Source: an uncultured Legionellales bacterium (GTDB taxonomy: Bacteria > Pseudomonadota > Gammaproteobacteria > Eutrophobiales > Eutrophobiaceae). From it: 43,005 nt of DNA. The stretch is taken from assembly GCA_913045195.1 (NCBI GenBank), contig CAJWQR010000007.1, positions 1 through 43,005 of the forward strand. The letters are read 5' to 3'. The position numbers and the translations under genes were made by a program. Shown in pieces: positions 23,325 to 25,928 of the stretch. How positions within the stretch are numbered: the stretch's first letter is position 1; every line of letters starts with the position of its first letter. The notes beneath the pieces were generated by a model. It was not told the DNA's origin, searched no databases, and saw only the letters and a list, made by a program, of their open reading frames with translations.

Positions 23325-23909
23325 TTAGTCTAAATCAGAAATAAGTGATTCACTGATATTTTGCGCTATTGGATTAACCGTGTATTCATATTCAGGATGA
23401 TTAATGCCCGCAGATAACTCGCATCCGTCTTTCAAGCCATTAATCATTTCGTGATCTAACTGAAACCTTAGGAAGTGTACCGCAGATGTTTTATCCTCAT
23501 CACTGCGCTCAAGGTCTTCATCTGAGATAGGGTAAATCTCACTGAAACCCTGAATCTTTAACCATAGATTATTTTCAATACCCAGCATCTTTTTTAAAGC
23601 AACTCTACGTTCTTCTTCATCGGTGAATTCAATCATAAGAGTTGCTTTCCAGTTATTTCCATCTGGTATCATTGCATTATAAACAGCTAACTCTTCATCA
23701 ATAGCGCTTGATTCAAAAATTTTTTCCGCTCTTAACATTTCCTGTATTTGATAATGCATAGTTAAATTATCTTCAAAATACAATGTTATATTTGGTCCGA
23801 TAGCCAAATGACGATTCTTCTTGTGCGACATAATTTTTAGACGAAAATCATTACGAATTTCAGAATATTTTTCTAAAGAAAATAAATCTCCTCGAGTTAA
23901 TTTTTTCAT
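23325..23909 (-). CDS. DUF3501 family protein
   Basis: A 194-residue soluble protein of the DUF3501 family, function unknown. It shows LTRGDLFSLEKYSEIR at the N-terminus, KKNRHLAIGPNITLYFED, then TMHYQIQEMLRAEKIF, typical of the family. The protein is acidic and has few cysteines, so it is unlikely to bind an iron-sulfur cluster itself. It starts 3 bases after the CCG-domain iron-sulfur gene, a very tight link. The family commonly sits with a rubrerythrin and a GlpC-like iron-sulfur protein, which suggests a shared role in redox stress, but the biochemical function is not established. Confidence 0.85.
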   Translation of the reverse strand: MKKLTRGDLFSLEKYSEIRNDFRLKIMSHKKNRHLAIGPNITLYFEDNLTMHYQIQEMLRAEKIFESSAIDEELAVYNAMIPDGNNWKATLMIEFTDEEERRVALKKMLGIENNLWLKIQGFSEIYPISDEDLERSDEDKTSAVHFLRFQLDHEMINGLKDGCELSAGINHPEYEYTVNPIAQNISESLISDLD

Positions 23910-23912
23910 AAA

Positions 23913-25247
23913 TTATATGCCATAAGCTTCCCTTAATAATGCAAAAGGACTTTCAGATCTAATTTTAATATTTTCAACACCATTATCAATTTGATGGCCA
24001 GCCATAGGACAATCACTGATATAGTGATCAATTTTACTTTTTTCAATTTTATTTATAATTGGCCTACAAATTTTCATTGATGTCTCGTGATATTCAGTTT
24101 TTACTGCGTATGTTCCGTCATGACCTGAACAACGTTCTATTACCGATATATTTGTGTTTGGAATAAGCTCCAAAACTTCTTTTGTTTTTGGGCCAATATT
24201 CTGAACACGTTGATGACAAGGAATATGATAAGCAATCTCTCCGAGTGATTCGGTAAAATCTGTATTTAGATTCCCATTTTTTTTTAAAGCCATCAAGAAT
24301 TCAAAAGGATCGTAAAAAGCATTTTTAACTTTCTGAACATCATTATCTTCTGCAAACAATAACGGAAGTTCTTTTTTAAACATTAAAACACATGAAGGGA
24401 TTGGCGCAATAATACTCCAATCATCATTCGCTAATTTTAGTAATTCAGGAATATTATAGTCTTTTAAGCGTTCAACCGATTCAAGATCGCCCAACTCCAT
24501 CTTTGGCATACCACAACATTTTTCTTGTTTTACTAATCTAACTTCGAGTTGATTATGTTTTAATATAGCTATTAAATCTTCAACGACATCTGGTTCATTG
24601 CGATTGCCATAACATGTAACAAATACAGCAACTTTAGCTTTATGATTATCATTTATCACTTCATTAACAATCTTTTTATTTTTAAATCTTTTTCTTAGTG
24701 AATTACTATAAAATTTAGGTAAAACGGCCTCTGAATGTATTCCAATTGTTTTTTCCATTATTTTACGCATGGGTTTAATGGTGTTTGCGATATTTGCTGT
24801 TTGTGCAACAATAGGAATACCAACAAATGAGCCAACTTTGTCCGTTGAAGTTAATATTTTATCCCGTACACCAACATTACCATTACGAAAATTTTGTGCC
24901 TTCGCTCGTAACATTAAATGTGGAAAATCTACATTCCATTCATGAGGAGGAACATAGGGGCACTTAGTCATATAACAAAGGTCGCAGAGATAGCAATGTT
25001 CTACTACATCCCAGTAATTATCTTTTTTAACGCCGTCAACTTCAAATGTTTCAGATTCATCAATTAAATCAAATAATGTTGGAAATGCATTACAAAGATT
25101 AACGCAGCGCCGACACCCATGACAAATATCATAAACTCGTTCTAGTTCATCAAATAATGAACCTTCATCATTAAATTCTCCTGTTTTCCAGTTTATAGGA
25201 TGGCGAGTTGGAGCTTCTACACCGCCTTCGCGAGTTATATCATTCAT
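23913..25247 (-). CDS. GlpC-like iron-sulfur protein with two CCG domains (heterodisulfide-reductase-related)
   Basis: A 444-residue electron-transfer protein. Two N-terminal [4Fe-4S] sites are seen: C42-x2-C45-x2-C48-x3-C52 and C85-x2-C88-x2-C91-x4-C96. Two CCG domains, of the type found in HdrB, GlpC and LutA/LutE proteins, follow: C212, C244-C245-G, C286; and C344, C373-S-G, C413. The second has Ser in place of the middle cysteine (C-S-G), so its cluster would be altered. No membrane segment is visible. The partner flavoprotein of GlpABC is absent. It lies 71 bases downstream of the rubrerythrin, separated by an intrinsic terminator, and 3 bases upstream of DUF3501. It may feed electrons to the rubrerythrin, which lacks its own rubredoxin domain; this is inference. 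Confidence 0.85.
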   Translation of the reverse strand: MNDITREGGVEAPTRHPINWKTGEFNDEGSLFDELERVYDICHGCRRCVNLCNAFPTLFDLIDESETFEVDGVKKDNYWDVVEHCYLCDLCYMTKCPYVPPHEWNVDFPHLMLRAKAQNFRNGNVGVRDKILTSTDKVGSFVGIPIVAQTANIANTIKPMRKIMEKTIGIHSEAVLPKFYSNSLRKRFKNKKIVNEVINDNHKAKVAVFVTCYGNRNEPDVVEDLIAILKHNQLEVRLVKQEKCCGMPKMELGDLESVERLKDYNIPELLKLANDDWSIIAPIPSCVLMFKKELPLLFAEDNDVQKVKNAFYDPFEFLMALKKNGNLNTDFTESLGEIAYHIPCHQRVQNIGPKTKEVLELIPNTNISVIERCSGHDGTYAVKTEYHETSMKICRPIINKIEKSKIDHYISDCPMAGHQIDNGVENIKIRSESPFALLREAYGI

Positions 25248-25262
25248 GATTTTTTATTTGTT

Positions 25263-25305
25263 ACAAAAAAATAGTTGAGCCTGTTTTCTTGCCGACTCAA
25301 CTATT
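25263..25305 (-). terminator. Intrinsic terminator / attenuator after the rubrerythrin gene
   Basis: Read on the minus strand, AATAGTTGAG (complement of 25296-25305) pairs perfectly with CTCAACTATT (complement of 25270-25279) and is followed directly by a run of Ts, the layout of a Rho-independent terminator. It begins 14 bases after the rubrerythrin stop. Only 15 bases separate its end from the iron-sulfur gene start, too few for a complete new promoter, so the downstream pair must depend on readthrough or on a promoter inside the rubrerythrin gene. Confidence 0.75.
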
Positions 25306-25318
25306 CTATGAAAGATTC

Positions 25319-25738
25319 TTATGAAGATAAATTATCTAATGCTTTTTGAAAGCGATTAGCATGAGAACGCTCAGCCTTGGCTAATGTTTCAAACCAGTCA
25401 GCTATTTCATCGAAACCTTCTTCACGAGCAGATTTAGCCATTCCTGGATACATATCTGTGTACTCGTAAGTTTCACCAGCAATTGCAGCCTTAAGATTAA
25501 GATCTGTGGAGCCAATTGGTTCGCCTGTTGCTGGATCTCCGACTGATTCTAAGTACTCTAGATGTCCATGAGCATGTCCTGTCTCGCCTTCAGCAGTTGA
25601 ACGAAACACTGCGGACACATCATTGTAACCCTCAACATCTGCTTTTTGTGCAAAATAGAGATATCGACGATTTGCTTGAGATTCGCCAGCAAATGCCGCT
25701 TTAAGATTTTCCTCTGTTTTTGAGTCTTTTAAGTCCAT
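25319..25738 (-). CDS. Rubrerythrin (erythrin type, no rubredoxin domain)
   Basis: A 139-residue four-helix diiron protein that reduces hydrogen peroxide. Both half-sites are intact: E19 in AGESQA, E52-x-x-H55, then E89 in AGETYEY and E123-x-x-H126 near the C-terminus. The usual C-terminal rubredoxin domain with its FeS4 cysteines is missing, so electrons must come from another protein, perhaps the iron-sulfur protein encoded next. A strong ribosome-binding site (AGGAG, about 8 bases before ATG) suggests high expression. Upstream lie a perfect FNR-type box and a 17-bp palindrome; downstream lies an intrinsic terminator. Confidence 0.93.
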
Positions 25739-25786
25739 TCTATGTCTCCTAATGATGTAATTTTATTAATATTTAATATAATTATG

Positions 25787-25803
25787 TTTAGACTTAGTCT
25801 AAA
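25787..25803. promoter_or_regulatory. 17-bp palindrome upstream of rubrerythrin, candidate operator
   Basis: TTTAGACTTAGTCTAAA is a perfect 7-3-7 inverted repeat 48 bases before the rubrerythrin start codon. If transcription is driven from the FNR-type box, it would fall at about +16 to +32 of the mRNA, suitable for a repressor or a small leader hairpin. The GACT/AGTC core recalls sites of Rrf2-family regulators such as IscR but does not match the published IscR spacing, so the regulator is unknown. Confidence 0.5.
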
Positions 25804-25852
25804 TTAGAAAGTCTATTGAATACAGCTATAACTGTCAAATTATGGCTGTTTC

Positions 25853-25866
25853 TTGATCTGAATCAA
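25853..25866. promoter_or_regulatory. FNR/Anr-type binding site (TTGAT-N4-ATCAA)
   Basis: TTGATCTGAATCAA is a perfect match to the FNR/Anr consensus TTGAT-N4-ATCAA. On the minus strand a -10-like TATAGC (complement of 25825-25830) lies at the spacing expected for a class II FNR promoter, with the box centred about 41.5 bases before a start near 25818. That points to low-oxygen activation of rubrerythrin. On the plus strand the corresponding position (25889-25894) is a poorer -10, so control of xseB is less likely but not excluded. Confidence 0.65.
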
Positions 25867-25928
25867 TTTGTTAATAAATCTAAAGATCTTAATTAACAAA
25901 GAAAATGAGTGCCACTGAAGATATAATC

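Follow-up and report, generated by a model that had tools for sequence, protein, structure and literature searches.

The window, that is, the whole 43,005-nucleotide stretch of DNA analysed here, carries on its minus strand three adjacent genes, rbr, rfo and a DUF3501 gene (Table 1), which are identical in kind and order to those of the aerobic-type rubrerythrin cluster RBR-RFO-DUF3501 as it was defined (PMC5114695), the rubrerythrin lacking a rubredoxin domain. The strong hairpin in the rbr-rfo gap (-16.6 kcal/mol, z -5.4) has counterparts 3' of rbr in relatives, where bases have changed yet pairing is maintained. It is a probable attenuator or partial terminator, and these counterparts suggest attenuation that would keep rbr at a higher level than rfo and DUF3501. 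One genome of the same genus (G003; L169, G003:C41:1100-1900) encodes a second rubrerythrin (71% identical) on a short contig, beside a different Fur-family gene; the two could represent either a PerR-type pair or contamination.

Table 1. Features of the rbr operon and its upstream region (window coordinates).
Feature	Position	Strand	Basis or remark
Perfect FNR-type box, TTGATCTGAATCAA	25853..25866		Motif scan, chance model, comparison of relatives
-35 of conserved rbr promoter, TTGACA	25833..25838	-	Promoter scan, conservation
-10-like hexamer, TATAGC	25825..25830	-	Class II spacing from FNR box; inside spacer of conserved promoter
-10 of conserved rbr promoter, TAGACT	25810..25815	-	Promoter scan, conservation; 17-bp spacer
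17-bp palindrome, TTTAGACTNAGTCTAAA, predicted Irr-like operator	25787..25803		+1 to +17; 7-1-7 core 25788-25802
RBS of rbr, AGGAG	25746..25750	-	Sequence
rbr, aerobic-type rubrerythrin, 139 aa, without rubredoxin domain	25319..25738	-
Hairpin followed by T run, between rbr and rfo	25268..25307	-	Folding
rfo, Fe-S oxidoreductase	23913..25247	-
DUF3501 gene	23325..23909	-

A promoter scan identifies TTGACA-17-TAGACT on the minus strand before rbr, from which transcription is predicted to start near 25803, 7 bp past the -10 and at the first base of the palindrome (read on the minus strand, TTTAGACTAAGTCTAAA, 25803-25787). The 7-1-7 inverted repeat is a layout bound by several Fur-family proteins. 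This palindrome is the sole perfect match in its own genome, and its core has an expectation of about 1e-6 per upstream region under a dinucleotide model, for which, here and in the genome-wide expectations below, composition was taken from the window only. When rbr upstream regions of the genus are aligned, TTGACA and the half-sites TTAGAC and GTCTAA are invariant and the -10 begins with TA, while the FNR region varies. The palindrome resembles the Irr (ICE) box, having the form TTTAGA-N5-TCTAAA of ICE-type operators, a consensus that draws on the general description of ICE and on the alphaproteobacterial sequences compared here. Only two other TTAGA-N5-TCTAA sites occur in the genome, both of them lacking the GACTNAGTC core, and sites with 3 mismatches are rarer than in a reversed-pattern control; a wider Irr regulon was accordingly considered and rejected for this genome. 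Separately, several relatives without an Irr-like gene (G013, G016, G020, G026, G028, G031, G034, and G036) have a AAATACAAT-like stretch ~20-30 bp before the -35 of rbr, possibly a divergent promoter or a site of another regulator.

The FNR-type box begins 115 bp before the start codon of rbr (ATG, 25738), and the window holds no other perfect FNR match. The initial annotation had described a full-consensus FNR/Anr box at 25853-25866, and this observation is confirmed: TTGATCTGAATCAA is exact, a TTGATNNNNATCAA box as in FNR class II promoters. Perfect boxes are expected ~0.0009 times in the rbr spacer, 0.25 times in the window, and about 8 times in the genome (dinucleotide model). The genome scan that the annotation had called for reveals 24, against the ~8 expected, and 11 of these lie between genes, where ~0.4 are expected; the intergenic boxes include sites before fnr, before a truncated globin, and before the thiO-irr operon. 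Judged by these counts, TTGATCTGAATCAA is probably a real FNR-type site, beyond chance, and the excess between genes is such that Fnr may well bind it. The fnr/anr homologue on which the proposal also depended is present: the genome encodes an Fnr (264.6 bits vs. an NCBIfam cut-off of 228) that has the cluster cysteines Cys 32, 35, and 41 plus a fourth cysteine, and CRP is encoded separately. The box before thiO-irr (L178 1923-1936; G000:C28:11422-11435) lies 46 bp upstream of that operon, has TACAAT at exact class II spacing, and is not kept elsewhere in the genus.

The comparison of relatives goes the other way. Absence of the box from close relatives had been named beforehand as an outcome that would count against FNR control, and the box is missing before rbr in all four same-genus genomes examined (G001, G003, G004, and G005). 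It is missing, too, before rbr in the many same-family genomes examined, and no perfect FNR box stands upstream of rbr in 80 named loci or in any other rbr upstream region examined. Such footprinting across relatives rules out FNR as a conserved regulator of rbr, and leaves the box as, at most, a recent, species-specific second input. Its position depends on the promoter chosen: the box centre is at -41.5 if TATAGC serves as the -10, but at -56.5 if transcription starts near 25803 from the conserved promoter. Usual activating positions for FNR are -41.5, -61.5, and -71.5.

It is possible, though short of probable, that Fnr has a modulating effect on the conserved, Irr-controlled promoter from its site at about -56.5, either activating it weakly or repressing it under anoxia, or that it contributes a minor second promoter, as a species-specific addition perhaps acquired together with the thiO-irr box. 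The surplus of intergenic boxes and the like arrangement at thiO-irr speak for this, although -56.5 is not among the usual activating positions and both boxes lack conservation in the genus; if both work, the circuit in this species would have two points of oxygen input. We consider it unlikely that Fnr activates rbr as a class II regulator at low oxygen, with TATAGC as the -10 and a start near 25818. Beyond the perfect box, the encoded Fnr, and the excess of intergenic sites, this explanation has in its favour that the distance from the box centre to the start of TATAGC (25830-25825, minus strand) is 29.5 bp and does fit the class II spacing that had been claimed. The hexamer, however, agrees with TATAAT at four of six positions, the final T not among them, and is located within the spacer between the perfect -35 and the -10 of the conserved promoter; a match to TATAAT at ≥4/6 is found in 15% of intergenic hexamers, and ~39% of FNR boxes are expected to have such a hexamer within 1 bp of the class II place on a given strand. 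By these frequencies TATAGC is unremarkable beside the box, occurring no more than chance would predict, and the box is absent from the genus, family, and named loci compared. Thus, the initial proposal of low-oxygen control over rubrerythrin and its iron-sulfur partner draws support from the Fnr protein and the box surplus, but not from conservation or from the spacing to the conserved promoter; as an interpretation it is weak and supported in part.

An Irr-like protein of 146 aa (L020) is encoded outside the window (G000:C28:12634-13074). It belongs to a distinct Fur-family class and has its best scores against the IrrA and Irr models (110 and 109 bits, vs. 43 bits against Fur), although it falls below the NCBIfam Irr cut-offs (110 of 150 bits and 109 of 170 bits). 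Fur-family genes, listed across 58 genomes, occur in 55 of them, and the Irr-like class in 28 of the 58 relatives. Residues H46, D94, H100, H102, and D113 do not vary among the aligned proteins and align with H37, D85, H91, H93, and D104 of B. subtilis PerR, the regulatory metal ligands of that protein; H100 and H102, invariant in all aligned proteins, form the HxH heme-binding motif. The own-genome Irr-like sequence contains no CxxC, the motif whose pairs hold structural zinc in PerR. In a rough tree, which includes two Fur rows only, an unsettled bootstrap, and a long-branched Leptospira reference inside the gammaproteobacterial group, the gammaproteobacterial Irr-like proteins form one supported group (97/100) next to alphaproteobacterial Irr rather than with Fur.

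The operator, counted when it lies upstream of rbr with at most one mismatch in its two half-sites, tracks the Irr-like gene. Among the rbr-bearing relatives of the first genome set, after which the half-site definition was picked, it is present in 25 of 25 with an Irr-like gene vs. 5 of 16 without (Fisher p 1.4e-6), and three of these five genomes are <85% complete. In a second set of 50 named genomes the counts are 33/35 vs. 4/15 (p 2.3e-6), with shuffled upstream regions reaching the operator score in <1% of cases; both tests ignore phylogeny, and the sets overlap by at least one genome (G037 = G098). Within a single genus, G011 has both operator and Irr-like gene and G025 has neither, and an operator is found where no Irr-like gene was detected in G047 (97% complete) and at L224, L227, and L250. 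This distribution bears on whether the resident Fur, or another Fur-family member, reads the palindrome in place of the Irr-like protein, which we judge quite unlikely: the 7-1-7 layout suits several Fur-family proteins and such genes are found in 55/58 genomes, but Fur is present almost throughout the set, whereas the presence of the operator goes with that of the Irr-like gene, and irr adjoins rbr in alphaproteobacteria. Resident Fur and Zur were both rejected as operator-binders because their distribution does not match that of the operator. Very unlikely, and dismissed here, is that the FNR box acts for the divergent xseB-ispA operon, for although it lies 100 bp before xseB, which is preceded by a perfect TATAAT (25922-25927), plus-strand class II spacing offers only TTAATT (3/6), with the TATAAT as -10 the box would fall near -74.5, and relatives have not kept it.

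We prefer Irr-like control, which is favoured by the conservation across the genus of operator and promoter, but not of the FNR region, by the rarity expected of the operator core, by the co-occurrence of operator and Irr-like gene, and by two observations described below, the adjacency of irr and rbr in alphaproteobacteria and the operator before a katG-type peroxidase in G008. It is likely that the main control of the rbr operon is exerted by an Irr-like Fur-family repressor at the palindrome, and an Irr/PerR-type regulator is most likely the main regulator of rbr; this is close to the peroxide control that the initial annotation had raised as an alternative. We infer binding, repressing sign, transcription start, and signal from what is seen in the sequence: promoter, operator, conservation, regulator gene, and co-occurrence. 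The Irr-like repressor would bind at about +1 to +17 of TTGACA-17-TAGACT and, since the operator covers these positions, its binding there would obstruct RNA polymerase. Derepression would be brought about by iron or heme, as for alphaproteobacterial Irr, or by iron-dependent oxidation, as for PerR, after which rbr, rfo, and DUF3501 would be made. The PerR-ligand residues and the operator targets favour peroxide or iron-peroxide as the signal; heme sensing via HxH is possible. Among these targets, the operator precedes a katG-type peroxidase in G008, which has an Irr-like gene and no rbr. More than one operator-like copy is present there (L109, about 200-260). Operators also stand before monothiol glutaredoxin genes in two unrelated families (G046 and G050; L152 and L154) and before a MarR-type regulator in G019. 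An unexpected possible target is a HAMP-domain sensor protein (G027, G030, and G035; L098, L101, and L155).

In alphaproteobacterial loci, the next gene upstream of rbr, in the same orientation, is irr (L188, L190, L194, L204, L213, L231, L256, and L254, the last grouped here despite a record title of Gammaproteobacteria), and a TTAGAATNATTCTAA-type site is located between the two genes; three of the encoded Irr proteins were scanned and are above the Irr cut-offs. With promoters grouped by Irr type and record titles, the operator begins +35 to +46 downstream of the -35 in 40 of 48 gamma-type promoters, and all 13 alpha-type promoters have it 19 to 22 bp upstream of that element. As a general rule, a site on the transcription start represses, and one just upstream of the -35 can activate. 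Opposite placement, read by this rule, suggests opposite signs of control in gammaproteobacteria and alphaproteobacteria. A wider proposal, tentative and rather doubtful as a whole, is that an Irr/PerR hybrid serves peroxide defence in many gammaproteobacteria, that the same regulator-operator pair would repress from +1 in these and activate from upstream of the -35 in alphaproteobacteria, where irr and rbr are neighbours, and that Fnr has been newly wired to the irr operon and to rbr in the present species.

Irr has been described as restricted to alphaproteobacteria, with few exceptions (PMC7762939), yet the Irr-like gene and its probable operator span many gammaproteobacterial families and are tied to one peroxide-reducing operon. 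The regulation of that operon is not treated in its defining paper, the main text of which contains none of "regulat", Irr, or PerR (PMC5114695), and our literature search, which is not proof of absence, found no Irr homologue controlling a gammaproteobacterial rubrerythrin. The fixed but opposite operator placement in the two classes offers a testable case of a possible sign change by a regulator in evolution, and the locus illustrates that a perfect consensus box found in a single genome can be misleading unless relatives are considered.

Compared with an FNR class II promoter, the rbr upstream region is alike in its perfect box and in the spacing to a -10-like hexamer, but differs in that the box is unconserved, the -10 is weak, and the arrangement conflicts with the conserved promoter. 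The gammaproteobacterial protein shares all five regulatory metal-ligand positions with PerR (B. subtilis 2fe3; Leptospira PerRA-like 5nl9), and the target genes in relatives include, as for PerR, a katG-type peroxidase and rubrerythrin; however, it scores lower to PerR than to Irr, lacks the structural-zinc CxxC, and has a different operator sequence. To alphaproteobacterial Irr it is a related Fur-family protein with an invariant HxH and no CxxC after it, although it remains under the curated Irr cut-offs and apparently has one target in its own genome. Its operator shares TTTAGA-N5-TCTAAA with the ICE box, but the core is GACTNAGTC rather than GAATNATTC, and in most gammaproteobacteria it lies 3' of the -10 of rbr, in contrast to 5' of the -35 in alphaproteobacteria. 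A matching arrangement is that of Rhodobacter sphaeroides mbfA, where an Irr box covering the 5' end was taken to be consistent with repression (PMC3413700); the gammaproteobacterial operator, over the predicted transcription start, has the same repressing arrangement.
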